Shown here: in pieces, positions 494 through 5,745 of the stretch
How the letters are laid out: each line of letters opens with the position of its first letter
Numbering within the stretch: the stretch's first letter is position 1
From: Pseudomonadota bacterium
GTDB taxonomy: Bacteria; Pseudomonadota; Gammaproteobacteria; Burkholderiales; Thiobacillaceae
Reading direction: 5' to 3'
DNA length: 5,745 bases
Assembly: GCA_021802595.1 (NCBI GenBank)
Contig: JAJZRT010000274.1
Coordinates: forward strand, 1-5,745
Notes under the pieces: model-generated
The model's input: the letters and a program-made list of their open reading frames with translations, nothing else
Told to the model about the DNA's origin: nothing
Databases searched by the model: none
Program-made: the position numbers and the translations under genes

Positions 494-1246
494 ATGAGCC
501 GATGGGTCATTAAAGGTATCCGCACTGGCATCAAGACCAGCGCATATCCGCGCGGCGTGGACAGCGCCGCCGGCGTCACGCCGGGGTTGCCGGACGGGGG
601 CGAGTTTGGCGCGGAAGCTGCGGCGCTCGTTGAACGCTGTCCCACGCAGGCGCTCAGCCAGACGAACGGGGTCATCACGGTGGATTATCGCCGTTGCGTT
701 CACTGCTACCGCTGCGTCCGCGGCGTGCCGCAGCCAGTGCACTGGCTGCCGACTTACGAATGGGGCGGCGCAGGCGCTGCGCCGCCGCTGCAAAATGAAT
801 TGGGCCAGCCGTTCCAGCGTTCGATCCATGTCCTCGTGGTGGACGCAGGCGACTGCGGCGCTTGCCTCAACGAGGTCAGGCAACTCAACAATCCGTATTA
901 CAACATGCACCGCTTGGGCTTCTTCATCACGCCGACGCCGCGCCACGCCGACGTGCTTCTGGTCGTCGGCCCCGTCACCGATCACATGCGCGCGGCGCTG
1001 AAGAAGATTTACGATGCGATGCCGACGCCCAAGCGCGTCGTTGCCGTGGGCGCGTGCGCATTGTCGGGCGGGGTATTCGCGCAGAGCTTCGTGTGCGCCA
1101 AGGGCGTGAGCGATCTGCTGCCGGTGGATGTCGCGGTGCCGGGAAATCCGCCGCCGCCGCTTGCGATCCTGCACGGCCTGCTCGTGGCGGTCGGACGCAA
1201 GTCGCCGGTGGCGCTCGCTTCCACCTTCTCGGGACCGGGGCGGTGA
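494..1246 (+). CDS. Ferredoxin-NuoB fusion: small subunit of group 4 hydrogenase-related complex
   Basis: This 250-residue protein passes electrons through iron-sulfur clusters to the large subunit encoded upstream. Residues 1-90 are a ferredoxin-like domain: a degraded first motif that keeps only the CP cysteine (C49, RCPTQAL), then C68xxC71xxC74. Together these form one complete [4Fe-4S] site, while the ligands of the second site are missing. Residues 110-235 are a NuoB/HyfI/HycG-like domain: GDCGACLNE (C121, C124, replacing CNGCxxE), PRHADVLLVVGPVT (149-162), VGACALSGGVF (C188) and VPGNPPPPLAILHGLL (215-230). The family ending is PGCPPRP; here the fourth cluster cysteine is Asn218. C201 is the only nearby spare cysteine. 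The ATG at 494 is chosen because the protein then begins MSRWVIKGIRTGIKTSAYPR, the usual short lead of these fusions (GLKTGxxTxxYP). A weak GGA lies 7 bases upstream. The reading frame stays open further upstream but shows no family sequence. The stop overlaps the next start as TGATG. Confidence 0.88.
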   Translation: MSRWVIKGIRTGIKTSAYPRGVDSAAGVTPGLPDGGEFGAEAAALVERCPTQALSQTNGVITVDYRRCVHCYRCVRGVPQPVHWLPTYEWGGAGAAPPLQNELGQPFQRSIHVLVVDAGDCGACLNEVRQLNNPYYNMHRLGFFITPTPRHADVLLVVGPVTDHMRAALKKIYDAMPTPKRVVAVGACALSGGVFAQSFVCAKGVSDLLPVDVAVPGNPPPPLAILHGLLVAVGRKSPVALASTFSGPGR

Positions 1247-3396
1247 TGGCGCCGCTCACGCTCATCGCCCTCGTCTTTGCGACATGCGGCGTCGGAATCT
1301 TGCTTTCCCTGGCGCTACGCCCCTCGCAGCAAGCCACCGTGCTTGCATGGCTGGGCTGTCTTGCCGCGACTGCGGCCGCCGCGGCGGGCGCCACAGTTTT
1401 ATTCAGCGGCGGCGGCTTCACCCTGACGCTGTGGACATTGCCCGGACTGGCAGCGCTCACGCTGCGTATCGACCCGCTCGCGGCGGCGTTCGTGCTGGTA
1501 ACGGGCCTGGTGCTGTTCCCGGCCTCGATCTATGCCGGCGGGGAATTGAGGCGCGAATCGCTGCGCGGACGCGAACGCGCGTTTACGCTGATGCTGCTCG
1601 CGCTTTATGCGTCGATCGTCCTGATCCTGATCTCGGGTGACGCGGTGCTGTTTCTTCTGGCGTGGGAGCTCATGTCGATCCTGTGCTATCTGCTTGTGCT
1701 GTGCGGCCAGGGCGACGAGACCGGCCAGCGGGTCGCGTCGGGATATCTGCTGCTCGCCATGGGCGAGGCGGGAACGCTTGCGATCGCACTCGGCTTCCTG
1801 CTGTTGGCGCTCAATGCGAGCTCGATGGAATTCGACGCGCTCAGGTCCGCCGCGGCGGGCCTGGGAACGAGCGCCCGCTGGGGCGTGTTTCTCCTGACGT
1901 TCTTCGGATTCGGTGTCAAGGCCGGCCTGGTGCCGGTGAACTCCTGGCTGCAGCGGGCTTATGCCGTCGCGCCGCGCGCGTTCGTGCCGGTGCTCGCCGG
2001 CGCGACGCTGAACCTCGGCCTGTACGGCATCCTGCGGGTGAACGCCGACCTTTTGCCCGCGGCGCACGCGGGCACGGGCCTGGTCGCGCTGGTGGTCGGC
2101 ACCGCTTCGGCGCTGATCGGGATCCTGTATGCGACCACGGTCAACGATCTCAAGGCGATGCTCGCGCACAGCTCGATCGAGAACGCCGGCATCGTCGTGG
2201 CGGGCGCCGGTGCCGGGATGGTCTTTTCCGCCACGCATCATCCCGCGATCGCCGCGATCGCCTTCGTGGCCGCGCTCTACCATCTGATCAACCATTCGCT
2301 CTACAAGACGCTGCTTTTCGTCGGCGTCGGCGAGGTGGAGACGCAGACCGGGACGCGCGACATGGATCGGCTCGGCGGCCTGATCAAATGGATGCCGCTG
2401 ACCGCGCTCGGCTTCCTTGCCGGAACGCTGTCGATCGCTGCGCTGCCGCCGTTCAACGGCTTCGTCAGCGAATGGCTCACGCTGCAGACCATGCTGCGCA
2501 CGGCGGAACTGTCCTCGACCGGAGCGAAGATCGTCTTCGCCCTGTCCGGCGCCGGCCTCGCGCTGACGGCTGCGCTCGCGGTGACCTGCTTCGTGAAGGT
2601 GTTCGCGATGAGCTTTCTGGGAATGCGCCGGCTGGACGAAGGGCGGCGGGTGAGCGAAGCCAGTCCCGCTGCGCTCGCCTCGATGGGGATTCTCGCGGTG
2701 CTGTGCCTCGCGTTCGGTGTGCTGCCGACTTACGTGATTCCGATGCTGGACCCGGCAACGATGCAACTGGCGGGGGCGAGTGCAGCCGACGCTCTGGTGC
2801 CGCCATTCTTTGCCGCGGCTCCTACGCATGGCACGTTACCGGCCCCATTCGTGGCCGACTTCCACGATCTTGGCGCGCAGGTTGGACAAAGCGTCCTGCC
2901 CGGGCGCGGGCTGGTGGTGCTGCACCGGGGCGGCGAGGCGAATCCGGTGATCTTCGCCATGTCCACGTCGTACCTGCTGGTGGTGCTGGCGGGTTTGCTG
3001 GTTCTGACCTACGTCATCATTCGGGTGTGGCTGACCCGCCGCAGGAAGCTCGTACGGCGCGAGCGCTGGGACGGCGGGCTGCGGCGGCTGCTACCGGAGA
3101 TGAGCTACACGGCGACGGGTTTCTCCAACCCGGTGCGGGTGATTTTCGACGCGGTGTTCCGGCCGACGACGGTGGAGGACACGCGCGAGACGGTGGCCGG
3201 GCACTTTCGCAACGCCATCCGGCGCGAGAAGGACCGCGTTCATCTGGTGGATAGGCTGGTATTCCGGCCGGTCAGATCGGCAACGCTATGGTTCGCGCGC
3301 GGTCTGGCCCTGATGCACCACGGGCGCCTCAACGCCTACGTCACGTACGCGTTATTGGCACTGTTGATCGTGTTGGTCTTGCTATCGGTGTCCTGA
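1246..3396 (+). CDS. HyfB/HycC-like proton-translocating membrane subunit (NuoL/NuoM family)
   Basis: A 716-residue integral membrane protein of the Mrp antiporter / NuoL-M-N family, close to hydrogenase-4 subunit B, which is usually about 670 residues. About 14 hydrophobic helices fill residues 1-500. A polar loop of about 65 residues follows, then a helix at about 570-597, a cytoplasmic segment with WDGG (608-611) and MSYTATGFSNPVRVIF (619-634) typical of HyfB ends, and a last helix at 697-714. Conserved charges of the ion path are present: Glu141 (AWELMS), Lys225 (GVKAGLVP), Lys303 (NDLKAML), Lys354 (HSLYKTLLF) and Lys451 (CFVKVF). Two family positions differ: HxWLPEAH is NSWLQRAY (232-239), and the TM8 lysine of NuoM/HyfB (xxIKxGxYG) is Asn256 (TLNLGLYG). 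The ATG at 1246 overlaps the small-subunit stop, has GGGG five bases upstream and begins a hydrophobic helix at once. It is the last gene of this operon in the window, and no HyfC/NuoH-like gene follows it. Confidence 0.92.
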   Translation: MAPLTLIALVFATCGVGILLSLALRPSQQATVLAWLGCLAATAAAAAGATVLFSGGGFTLTLWTLPGLAALTLRIDPLAAAFVLVTGLVLFPASIYAGGELRRESLRGRERAFTLMLLALYASIVLILISGDAVLFLLAWELMSILCYLLVLCGQGDETGQRVASGYLLLAMGEAGTLAIALGFLLLALNASSMEFDALRSAAAGLGTSARWGVFLLTFFGFGVKAGLVPVNSWLQRAYAVAPRAFVPVLAGATLNLGLYGILRVNADLLPAAHAGTGLVALVVGTASALIGILYATTVNDLKAMLAHSSIENAGIVVAGAGAGMVFSATHHPAIAAIAFVAALYHLINHSLYKTLLFVGVGEVETQTGTRDMDRLGGLIKWMPLTALGFLAGTLSIAALPPFNGFVSEWLTLQTMLRTAELSSTGAKIVFALSGAGLALTAALAVTCFVKVFAMSFLGMRRLDEGRRVSEASPAALASMGILAVLCLAFGVLPTYVIPMLDPATMQLAGASAADALVPPFFAAAPTHGTLPAPFVADFHDLGAQVGQSVLPGRGLVVLHRGGEANPVIFAMSTSYLLVVLAGLLVLTYVIIRVWLTRRRKLVRRERWDGGLRRLLPEMSYTATGFSNPVRVIFDAVFRPTTVEDTRETVAGHFRNAIRREKDRVHLVDRLVFRPVRSATLWFARGLALMHHGRLNAYVTYALLALLIVLVLLSVS

Positions 3397-3416: not shown

Positions 3417-4799
3417 TTAGGAAAAACCGCAAAATCTGCCCAATCCAACTCTCCACGGCGCATGCAGACAATCTCCGGTTTCGTGTTCATGTGTCCCGTG
3501 CTCCCCTTCATCGAGACTCCTTGCGAACTCGGCCAGCCTGTTCCGCTGGTCTTCGGCAAGCATCGACCGAACTAAGCCTTTTGGCGCCAACAGATATGTC
3601 TGTGCGAAGTGTCTCATGCATAGACCGTCACACCGGCCGAAGGCATCGCGATACTTTTTTTGGTGGAGCAAATCGACCAACTTACCCGCGGTTCCAATTT
3701 CGGCGATCTCGATACGCGCGCAGCCGGGACACGGCGCCAAACGAGCCGTCGGAACTTTTTCGTCAACGGTATTCTGCTTGGCTCGTTTTCGCTTGTGTGC
3801 AGCCCAGACTTCGGGTCCTTCGGCCTTGATCCTGGCTTGCTCATCCCTGAGTTCGGCTGCCCGGACCAGAACCTGGATTTGTTGTCGTAGATAGCGGCGA
3901 GTGACGGACAAGGCGCGCGAGACGACGGCAGCAGTCAATTTCGGCTCGCCGAGCCGGGCAACCATCCCTATATGTTCGGAACATGTGGGAAAGAAAAGCC
4001 AGGCGTCCTGTTCGAAGTGGGCGGCAGCTTGCACGTTCTGCAGCCAACGTTGACGCGCGCGTGCCGTCTCGATGCAAATCGGGCAGGCTTGCCGGAGGGA
4101 AATCGCATCGACGAGGGTGGGGCAATGTTCCAGAACACCGGCGAACCCAGCGTCCGAAGACGGAGCACCGGCGGCCGGCATGCCGGCGACGAGGCCGAGT
4201 GGGTGATTCAGCGTCGCGGCGGTGTCGTCGGGCGGCCAGGCATCCGTTTCCGGCGCCGTCCGGAGTAGCACCTTCATCGTCCCCGCCACGCGATCCAGAT
4301 TGTCCGCATAGGCAATCAGAACGGCCAGCCGCGGCGTCGGTGCCAGGTCCGCCGCAAACCTCTGGAAATGCCCGACGCAGAGCGCATCGAGCCGCCCGAA
4401 ACCGGCTTGATTCGCAGCGCCGGAAAATTGCCGGGCGAGACTTGCTGCGTGCCGTCCGACAGCTCGACTGGCATAGGTGCAGGCAGGACAGGCGCTGCCC
4501 GCTGCAAACAACGCTTGCTGAACCTGGGGTTCACGCAAATAGTCCTCGTTCAACAGCAGCATGACTCGTGGAATTGCGTTCCGAAGCACCTGGACGACTC
4601 CGTCCGACAACTGTTCCTGGGAGAGCAGGCTTGCCCCGTGCCGCGGGCAGAATCCGAGGGCGTCAGCCATGGCCTCGCCGGTTGCGGCGAACAGACGTGG
4701 CTCGCCGAATGCCCGCGCGAAATAGCCGGCATCGCTGCTCGTGGATGTCTCGCACAGCGGGCACGGGCATTCCCCGAAACCGGTTTCCGTGGCGTTCAT
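3417..4799 (-). CDS. Uncharacterised protein with four CPxC...CxxH (zinc-ribbon-like) modules
   Basis: I do not recognise a named gene. The 460-residue product has no signal peptide or membrane helix and is probably cytoplasmic. It carries four paired motifs: CPLC (13-16) with CPRH (51-54); CPAC (104-107) with CVGH (141-144); CPIC (239-242) with CSEH (273-276); and CPGC (357-360) with CMRH (394-397). The gap inside each pair is 30-34 residues and mostly helix-forming, so each pair looks like one C2-CH metal site, most simply zinc. A basic stretch HKRKRAK (335-341) precedes module 4. The tail is acidic, then rich in His and Cys (H434, H437, H439, C444, H446, C457). The ATG at 4799 is preferred because it overlaps the stop of the small ORF upstream (ATGA) and module 1 follows within ten residues. 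An in-frame ATG at 4829 would add ten residues but has no ribosome binding site. The CPxC/CxxH layout recalls DUF6062-type proteins, but I could not test that. The partner gene suggests a job tied to a MutS-like ATPase. Confidence 0.82.
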   Translation of the reverse strand: MNATETGFGECPCPLCETSTSSDAGYFARAFGEPRLFAATGEAMADALGFCPRHGASLLSQEQLSDGVVQVLRNAIPRVMLLLNEDYLREPQVQQALFAAGSACPACTYASRAVGRHAASLARQFSGAANQAGFGRLDALCVGHFQRFAADLAPTPRLAVLIAYADNLDRVAGTMKVLLRTAPETDAWPPDDTAATLNHPLGLVAGMPAAGAPSSDAGFAGVLEHCPTLVDAISLRQACPICIETARARQRWLQNVQAAAHFEQDAWLFFPTCSEHIGMVARLGEPKLTAAVVSRALSVTRRYLRQQIQVLVRAAELRDEQARIKAEGPEVWAAHKRKRAKQNTVDEKVPTARLAPCPGCARIEIAEIGTAGKLVDLLHQKKYRDAFGRCDGLCMRHFAQTYLLAPKGLVRSMLAEDQRNRLAEFARSLDEGEHGTHEHETGDCLHAPWRVGLGRFCGFS

Positions 4800-4921
4800 G
4801 GCGCATCGTTCGCTCGGCCGAAGTGACATAGACGAAGCAGATCGGCCTTGATCCTGTCGGGCAAGGCCAGCCTCCCCGCCGACTGACGCCATCGACCGTG
4901 AGCATCGATCACCTTGGGCAT
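4796..4921 (-). CDS. Putative 41-residue small ORF between the MutS-like gene and the CPxC/CxxH gene
   Basis: The ATG at 4921-4919 lies two bases after the MutS-like stop (TGACGATG), and the frame runs 41 codons to a TGA at 4798-4796 that overlaps the next gene's ATG as ATGA. A GGGGA element sits seven bases before the ATG, better than anything before the downstream gene. About two thirds of its codons end in G or C, similar by eye to the flanking genes. The peptide starts MPKVIDAHGRWRQSAG and ends with PDRIKADLLRLCHFG and a short polar tail; it is basic with a possible amphipathic helix and one Cys-His pair. I know no family for it. It may be a real small protein of the operon or only a leader whose translation carries ribosomes onto the next start. 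Such junctions at both ends argue for translation, but its length is too small to prove a product. Confidence 0.5.
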   Translation of the reverse strand: MPKVIDAHGRWRQSAGRLALPDRIKADLLRLCHFGRANDAP

Positions 4922-4923
4922 CG

Positions 4924-5745
4924 TCAGATCCCCGTCGCGGCGCCGAAGATCTCTTCATACAGATCCGTGCCGAAGCTCGTCTGCAAGGGTTCGCCGTCGA
5001 GCAATTTGAAGCTTCGCCTGCCGTCGGCTTGTCTTTCCGCGCGCAGGAAGACGGCATTGTCCAGCCGCTGTTCGCACAGGCCGTGCGCAAATTCGTACAA
5101 ATGCGTCACGAAGAAGACCTTGACGGGTGTCTCCGATAGAGCAAGTACGATTTGGCGCGCAATCTCGGAACCCTCCCGTTCGTTGGTCGCGGCGAAGGAC
5201 TCGTTGAATAGCAGCATCGAATCCGGCGTCAACGCGTCGACGACATCGCTCATCCGGCTGAGCTCTTCATCGAATTTGCCGCTTGTCATGGTGCTGTCTT
5301 CCTCACGCTTGTAGTGGGTGAGCAGGCGGCGGCCAATATCGGCGCTGAAAGCCTCGGCCGCCACGAACATGCCGCATTGCATCATCAGTTGTGCCAGCCC
5401 GATGCCGCGCAAGAAGGTGGACTTGCCGCCCTGATTGGCGCCGGTGACGATCACGAGGTTCTTCTCGTCGGCATCCAAGTCGTTGCCCACGACCTCATGC
5501 CCCAGACTGAGAGCGAGACAGACGTCGTAAAGTCCGCGGCAGGTATGCCTGCGAGTGCCGCCGGGCGCGGGAATGGGAAAGCACACCAGTGTCCCCTGGC
5601 CGACGAGCCGGCCGTGCAGATTCACGCAAGCGACATAGAACGCCAGCTCCGTTCGCAGCATGGTGAAAAAACTTAGAATATGCTCCGCAGACTGCGCCAG
5701 CGCATTCGCCACCAGATTGATACCGAGGTCCCGCATTATCGACAG
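4924..5745 (-). CDS. Stand-alone MutS-like ATPase, C-terminal part (5' end beyond the right edge)
   Basis: The frame is open to the window edge and 273 residues are visible. The product is the ABC-type ATPase domain (MutS domain V) of a MutS-related protein. Counting from the edge, Walker A is TGANQGGKST (101-110; MutS has TGPNMGGKST). The signature-like stretch is TSGKFDEELSRMSDVV (154-169), equivalent to the STFMxEM region. Walker B is MLLFNESFAATNEREG (177-192; MutS has LLDEIGRGTSTFDG), and the switch histidine lies in FFVTHLYEFAHG (211-222; MutS has FATHYFEL). The Walker B aspartate is Asn and the catalytic Glu is kept, which I believe is usual in these stand-alone relatives. The protein ends about 50 residues after the switch histidine, so it lacks the helix-turn-helix dimer domain that closes MutS. 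Residues 1-35 look like the end of the helical lever domain. A mismatch-binding domain, if any, would lie outside the window, so mismatch repair should not be assumed. It is the first visible gene of the minus-strand unit. Confidence 0.9.
   Translation of the reverse strand: MSIMRDLGINLVANALAQSAEHILSFFTMLRTELAFYVACVNLHGRLVGQGTLVCFPIPAPGGTRRHTCRGLYDVCLALSLGHEVVGNDLDADEKNLVIVTGANQGGKSTFLRGIGLAQLMMQCGMFVAAEAFSADIGRRLLTHYKREEDSTMTSGKFDEELSRMSDVVDALTPDSMLLFNESFAATNEREGSEIARQIVLALSETPVKVFFVTHLYEFAHGLCEQRLDNAVFLRAERQADGRRSFKLLDGEPLQTSFGTDLYEEIFGAATGI
4929..4933 (-). promoter_or_regulatory. Ribosome binding site (GGGGA) for the small ORF
   Basis: GGGGA on the minus strand lies inside the last codons of the MutS-like gene, seven bases before the ATG at 4921. 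It is the only good Shine-Dalgarno match near the start of either downstream reading frame. The 460-residue protein may therefore be translated by coupling through the small ORF. Confidence 0.45.

Follow-up and report, generated by a model that had tools for sequence, protein, structure and literature searches.

A double DUF6062 protein encoded beside a MutS-like ATPase and its probable link to the bacterial fluoride response

The window considered here, the whole 5,745-nt stretch of DNA that was analyzed, carries on its minus strand a gene for a 460-residue protein with repeated CPxC and CxxH motifs, preceded by the frame of a MutS-like ATPase. The locus raises the question of what such a protein does and whether the ATPase is its partner. 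In the original prediction, the two products were proposed to be a two-component system for handling nucleic acids or proteins. Most likely, however, the protein in the window helps the cell to cope with fluoride and does not serve a private MutS-like partner.

Motif pairs, fused units, and predicted structure

The gene occupies positions 3417 to 4799 of the minus strand (ATG at 4799), and its product matches PF19538 (DUF6062, a Pfam family of unknown function) in two stretches, with 49 bits against a cut-off of 27. The CxxC motifs start at residues 13, 104, 239, and 357 and the CxxH motifs at residues 51, 141, 273, and 394, with a spacing of 34, 33, 30, and 33 residues in pairs 1 to 4. Pair 1 is comprised of CPLC (13-16) and CPRH (51-54) and is encoded at 4638-4763, pair 2 of CPAC (104-107) and CVGH (141-144) at 4368-4490, pair 3 of CPIC (239-242) and CSEH (273-276) at 3972-4085, and pair 4 of CPGC (357-360) and CMRH (394-397) at 3609-3731, all on the minus strand. 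In 100,000 composition-preserving shuffles of the window protein, one pair appeared in 423, two in 14, and three or more in none, which bears out the claim that four pairs stand in one chain with a regularity beyond chance.

A protein search yielded 54 proteins, namely P0003, the database record of the window's own protein (a 513-aa version), and 53 homologs. The frame in the window is open upstream of the ATG as far as a TTG at 5090. Four pairs are kept in 53 of the 54 aligned proteins (query included), and P0044 has three. Of the 16 motif Cys/His residues, 14 are invariant across the 54 rows of the alignment (A3), including all those of pairs 2, 3, and 4, and the other two, C13 and C16 of the conserved pair 1, reach at least 90%.

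Judged by the two Pfam stretches, the window protein is composed of two tandem fused DUF6062 units with two motif pairs each. The proposal that four modules arose by internal duplication therefore holds in part: a duplication is supported, but the duplicated unit is the two-pair DUF6062 domain and not a single module. Profile comparison within the window protein matched module 2 to module 4 (probability 90, E 1.7e-6) and one half to the other (probability 73, E 3.2e-5); all other module-to-module comparisons gave unsupported probabilities of 3 to 10, and modules 1 and 3 have diverged too far for their share in the duplication to be judged. Among 33 genomic DUF6062 ORFs, two pairs occur in 22, four in eight, and one in three, and 30 of the ORFs have two pairs or more, each with a CxxH site of its own. 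The one-pair ORFs are those of G713 (129 aa), G929, and the C98 copy of G718, the last two at contig ends. The window protein shares with the family both CPxC...CxxH pairs per unit and an above-gathering score, whereas most of these genomic members have the two pairs of a single unit and the window protein has four. Homologs lacking four pairs, a conceivable objection to the original reading, are solely such single-unit relatives, and these retain two. Two adjoining single-unit genes behind one fluoride riboswitch were observed at L047:13844-15802, possibly showing what preceded the fused double gene.

The AlphaFold model of the window protein contains only helices (pLDDT 83, pTM 0.81), with every CPxC and CxxH located at a helix start; the protein is thus predicted to be all-helical and is presumably cytoplasmic. 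Profile comparison yielded no relative of known structure (the best match, ribosomal S18, had E 0.069), and no convincing PDB chain was found by Foldseek and VIA fold searches, although the fold need not be new for that reason.

DUF6062 loci, their neighbors, and fluoride riboswitches

A single scan of genome contigs for DUF6062 gave four loci. Genome searches were conducted on samples from one class, one order, and two phyla. By whole-genome search, DUF6062 was matched in 1 of 369 genomes in the class of G001. The phylum of G003 gave 9 matched genomes out of 198 (8 above cut-off) and the phylum of G004 gave 17 out of 95 (16 above cut-off). The A1 profile matched 3 of 300 genomes in the order of G001, including one weak match. 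The locus set is comprised of 32 DUF6062 loci in 28 genomes, with two loci each in G451, G718, G869, and G957. It leaves out G609 (a single weak partial match), G677 (below cut-off and absent from the DUF6062 ORF cluster), and a frame of L063 that is DUF6062-like by BLAST without a Pfam match; extra ORFs of G869 C226 and G004 were merged with one gene of their own locus, and short or overlapping same-cluster ORFs in L001 and L090 were excluded from the count. The nearest genomic relative of the window protein is that of L001 (59% identity), which alone among the genomic loci belongs to its close subfamily. No relatives were found in viral contigs scanned with the window DUF6062 protein (P0001). 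No paper naming DUF6062 was found in the literature searched, and the family could go by another name in the supplement of Baker 2012.

Within 6 kb of the 32 loci, a Na+/H+ exchanger gene is present at 13, always on the same strand. By ORF cluster, the other neighbors within this distance are MFS (9 loci), Zn-HEAT (8), dynamin (6), HIT (5), HAD (4), CrcB (3), MutS-like (3), and enolase (2). These labels denote single-linkage ORF clusters, some with alternative frames included, and were assigned by Pfam on representatives. A membrane pyrophosphatase was considered for two large neighbor clusters but is not claimed, as frames that overlap the Na+/H+ exchanger gene in L084 and L088 account for at least part of these clusters. 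In L001, the order is riboswitch-HIT-DUF6062-enolase, and a HAD gene also lies beside DUF6062; in G929, a frame of the CrcB cluster overlaps the DUF6062 locus. The exchanger, dynamin-like, MFS, Zn-HEAT, enolase, HIT, HAD, and CrcB neighbors led us to suspect a fluoride regulon, and Rfam scans detected RF01734 at many of the loci.

In 16 of the 32 loci, a same-strand fluoride riboswitch (RF01734) precedes DUF6062 by no more than 350 nt, against a chance expectation of about 0.004 loci, the distance being taken from the riboswitch end to the longest reading frame or allowing an overlap with the frame start by up to 50 nt. Five of the 16 overlap the start of the longest frame by 17-50 nt. Fourteen reach the 34-bit gathering score, with G866 (23.5) and G871 (33.1) falling under it. 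When the distance is extended to 2.7 kb, same-strand riboswitches precede 23 loci, 19 of them at gathering score. The seven more distant ones (505-2,697 nt; intervening genes inspected in part) belong to G001, G003, the second copy of G451, G713, G725, G867, and G869 C81, of which G867 and G869 C81 are below gathering. Nine loci had no upstream RF01734; some of these, not all, are contig ends or short contigs, and in G929, G950, and G956 (3 of the 28 DUF6062 genomes) RF01734 was matched nowhere in the assembly. DUF6062 genes therefore often come first, or early, after a fluoride riboswitch.

An association was also seen at the level of whole genomes. A genome-wide RF01734 search of 36 genomes gave matches in 32, of which 28 had matches over the cut-off. 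In the phylum of G004, where the riboswitch-led relatives are single-unit DUF6062 proteins, the riboswitch was matched in 14 of 17 genomes with DUF6062 versus 21 of 78 others at E ≤ 1e-3 (Fisher p 3.3e-5). At gathering score, the proportions are 10 of 17 versus 20 of 78 (p 0.010), a modest association. In the riboswitch survey of this phylum, run with stricter filters, 37 fluoride riboswitches reached the gathering score, and a DUF6062 gene stands directly behind 10 of them; DUF6062 is no marginal member of the fluoride-riboswitch genes there.

Could the riboswitch mark only the clusters and say nothing about the job of DUF6062, which would then be a thiol redox sensor or a general zinc protein? 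The Cys3His sets are compatible with redox-sensitive zinc, but a riboswitch directly upstream in 16 of the 32 loci means that fluoride is the usual trigger where the element is present, and such a general role appears quite unlikely.

The window itself differs from the regulon in carrying no riboswitch. Rfam gave no match at gathering in its 5,745 nt and one chance-level match at E ≤ 5, RF01734 was absent even at a permissive threshold, and the 5′ ends of both of its operons lie outside. The remaining gene types of the window, mutS-like and formate-hydrogenlyase-like, match the gene list published for the crcB RNA (PMC2864571). With its MutS-like B gene and formate-hydrogenlyase-like genes, the window appears to be the same kind of cluster, and it is very probable that the copy in it belongs to the fluoride response as well.

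MutS-like ATPases and the plus-strand complex

The MutS-like frame (4924-5745, minus strand; MutS_V, Pfam E 4e-19) encodes the C-terminal 273 aa of an ATPase truncated by the window end. That it shares the minus strand with the DUF6062 gene was correctly predicted, and it precedes that gene, but the supposed translational linkage was not confirmed: the ATPase stop ends at 4924 and the ATG lies at 4799, with 124 nt between them (4800-4923, no Rfam match).

The fragment (P0002) is of type B of a tandem A/B pair, being 66.5% and 63% identical to the type B genes of G451 and G559, both of which follow a type A gene. Type B was matched at high score in 2 of 200 genomes (G451 and G559), 8 of 198, and 1 of 95, giving 11 genomes; in the 200-genome search, some MutS-like match was seen in 186, nearly all weak. 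G713 is outside the 11, as it was missed at E ≤ 1e-40 and has two A-type pieces only. Type A stands directly before type B in all nine genomes in which the preceding sequence is covered, and in the other two, G762 and G957, the locus starts right at the end of a contig.

By domain content and score, neither ATPase is an ordinary MutS, because MutS_V is the sole Pfam match (E ≤ 0.01) of the full-length G559 proteins and the full-length G451 proteins score far below the MutS, MutS2, and KamC cut-offs. The window fragment shares the MutS_V ATPase domain with these families but is likewise far under their equivalog cut-offs (mutS1 62 vs 641.7, mutS2 64.4 vs 400, KamC 68.8 vs 300). A KamC-type reactivase was rejected as the identity of the neighbor (68.8 for the fragment and 69.4 for the type B protein of G451, vs 300) and is retained as an analogy. 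In LLFNES (window 4924-5745) and IIMNEI (L046:8064-11116), which we take to be the Walker B position of these MutS-like proteins, N replaces D before the glutamate. AlphaFold modeling of a type B protein gave a poor structure (pLDDT 55.5).

The pair has its own relation to the fluoride riboswitch. In 6 of the 11 pair genomes, a riboswitch lies within 201 nt before the A gene, at gathering score in G779, G855, G847, and G688 and below it in G754 and G812. In the last two, an enolase gene is followed by the weak riboswitch match and then by mutA-mutB. In G451 and G559, a riboswitch lies 4.5 and 14.5 kb upstream of the pair on the same strand, and in G773 none was found near the pair. A single co-directional stretch of G559 contains a riboswitch, HIT, complex subunits, a toroid protein, a dynamin-like protein, the MutS-like pair, and enolase.

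These data bear on the proposal that DUF6062 serves the MutS-like ATPase as its metal-binding adaptor, with both acting on one nucleic-acid or protein target. The two genes adjoin and are co-directional in the window, and DUF6062 lies within 8 kb in 3 of the 11 pair genomes (G451, G773, and G957, the last at 7.5 kb and on opposite strands). On the other hand, a MutS-like gene lies within 6 kb of only 4 of the 32 DUF6062 loci (both of G451, and those of G713 and G773). L001 has no MutS-like neighbor, and the one P0002 match of its genome has 26% identity, in the ATPase part. The constant partner of the B ATPase, in nine of nine genomes, is the A ATPase. In the phylum of G003, both families occur in 2 of 198 genomes (DUF6062 in 9 and the pair in 8; hypergeometric p 0.045), and in one of these two, G754, they are on different contigs. 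The family is thus largely scattered without MutS-like neighbors, apart from those four loci, and a dedicated two-component machine is unlikely. A looser functional relation between DUF6062 and the pair is supported, because both occupy fluoride-riboswitch gene clusters.

With regard to the plus strand, its operon converges with the minus-strand operon at about 3396/3417. It contains the end of a complex-I 49-kDa-like or hydrogenase-large-subunit-like gene (1-465; Pfam and comparison with G559), a NuoB-like subunit with an N-terminal ferredoxin-like part (494-1246; Oxidored_q6, 39% identity to the G559 cluster), and a HyfB/NuoL-like proton-antiporter subunit (1246-3396 as translated; 29% identity to G559 over 573 columns). 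The set thus resembles formate hydrogenlyase, hydrogenase-4, and complex I in its 49-kDa, NuoB, and HyfB-like subunits. The nickel-ligand CxxC motifs of NiFe hydrogenases, however, are absent at the C-terminus of the large subunit in the window (the N-terminal part of the gene lies outside) and from both ligand regions of its G559 homolog (L095:6761-8509), where neither the N-terminal ligand region nor the C-terminus has Cys. The complex is probably not a hydrogenase, because its large subunit is without these motifs.

DUF6062 might be an assembly or metal-delivery factor for this complex, whose convergent operon encodes iron-sulfur subunits and a like of which is co-directional with the MutS-like pair behind a riboswitch in G559. 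However, no DUF6062 frame was found in the 28.5 kb examined in G559, although the complex is encoded there; the large subunit lacks Ni ligands. In addition, no complex subunit formed a recognized cluster spanning at least three genomes near DUF6062 or the MutS-like pair, in contrast with the Na+/H+ exchanger of 13 DUF6062 loci. An assembly role is therefore decidedly unlikely.

A probable fluoride-response role and the wider gene cluster

The neighbors of DUF6062 are of kinds already tied to fluoride, namely the Na+/H+ exchanger, FluC/CrcB, enolase, HAD, and MutS-like genes. The crcB motif was reported to precede mutS, ion-transport, and formate-hydrogen-lyase genes (PMC2864571), and fluoride exporters, Na+/H+ antiporters, pyrophosphatase, HAD, enolase, and formate hydrogen lyase were also named (PMC11139923). 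The name DUF6062 does not appear in the available parts of these two papers. The correspondence with the regulon is twofold: DUF6062 and MutS-like pair genes elsewhere stand directly behind RF01734, and the exchanger, CrcB, enolase, and HAD genes occur among the neighbors.

The best explanation overall, which we consider probable, is a fluoride-response protein of two fused DUF6062 units. The leader RNA would bind Mg-bound fluoride and switch on the copy in the window. Each DUF6062 unit would provide two Cys3His sites, each set binding one metal, probably zinc, and the bound metal may pin the starts of two helices together to form a rod. As an adaptor or a metal buffer, the rod could support ion and pH homeostasis (Na+/H+ exchange) as well as the recovery of fluoride-poisoned metalloenzymes. 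The metal-stapled helical adaptor or metal buffer is the mechanism that we favor, though with low confidence. If DUF6062 does act in the fluoride response, the family would gain its first testable role. The bacterial fluoride response would also gain candidate members in the dynamin-like, HIT, and Zn-HEAT genes, and the regulon's "mutS" in these genomes is indicated to be a tandem MutS-like ATPase pair.

A more specific and rather unlikely extension is that DUF6062, the MutS-like A/B pair, and the dynamin-like GTPases form a system for recovery from fluoride damage. The ATPases would be reactivases, freeing poisoned enzymes (enolase, for example) of the Mg-fluoride-phosphate complexes trapped in them, and DUF6062 would be the metal-stapled adaptor. 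If true, it would account for "mutS" in the fluoride regulon without DNA repair.

The same dynamin-like and MutS-like genes could instead suggest that DUF6062 belongs to an anti-phage defense island. The dynamin-like neighbor in G559 matches PADLOC LeoBC (E 2.6e-25), and the 273-aa fragment P0002 has two PADLOC matches (E 4e-4 and 9e-4). However, neither P0001 nor the full-length MutS-like pair of G559 has a PADLOC match at E ≤ 0.001, and the neighboring genes, which lie under fluoride riboswitches, serve ion homeostasis and glycolysis; a defense role was rejected on the PADLOC result and is extremely improbable.

Some other genes were also observed in these clusters. Dynamin-like GTPase genes lie in fluoride clusters at L015:15271-17103, L015:12713-14788, L046:3154-5004, L063:15018-16799, and L079:1362-3095, and some of them come right after a fluoride riboswitch (L015, 17118-17180; L063, 16940-17008; L079, match below gathering). 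None of the papers listed by a literature search combined dynamin-like GTPases with "fluoride riboswitch". Small proteins occur near DUF6062 or MutS-like genes at L003:3200-3619 (in the dynamin-like ORF cluster), L056:15370-15858 (resembling the former), and L003:6439-6861 (no Pfam match). Toroid proteins, which are prenyltransferase- or terpene-cyclase-like, are found at L046:2310-3200 (by Pfam) and at L003:3712-4548 and L074:2758-3596 (by likeness only), and the first of two toroid frames in L074 starts just downstream of a fluoride riboswitch. Finally, an M-box (magnesium) riboswitch precedes a large frame amid fluoride-riboswitch genes at L074:6417-9726 and L055:12566-15873; the frame in L074 encodes a P-type cation ATPase by Pfam, and a link between magnesium and fluoride is possible.
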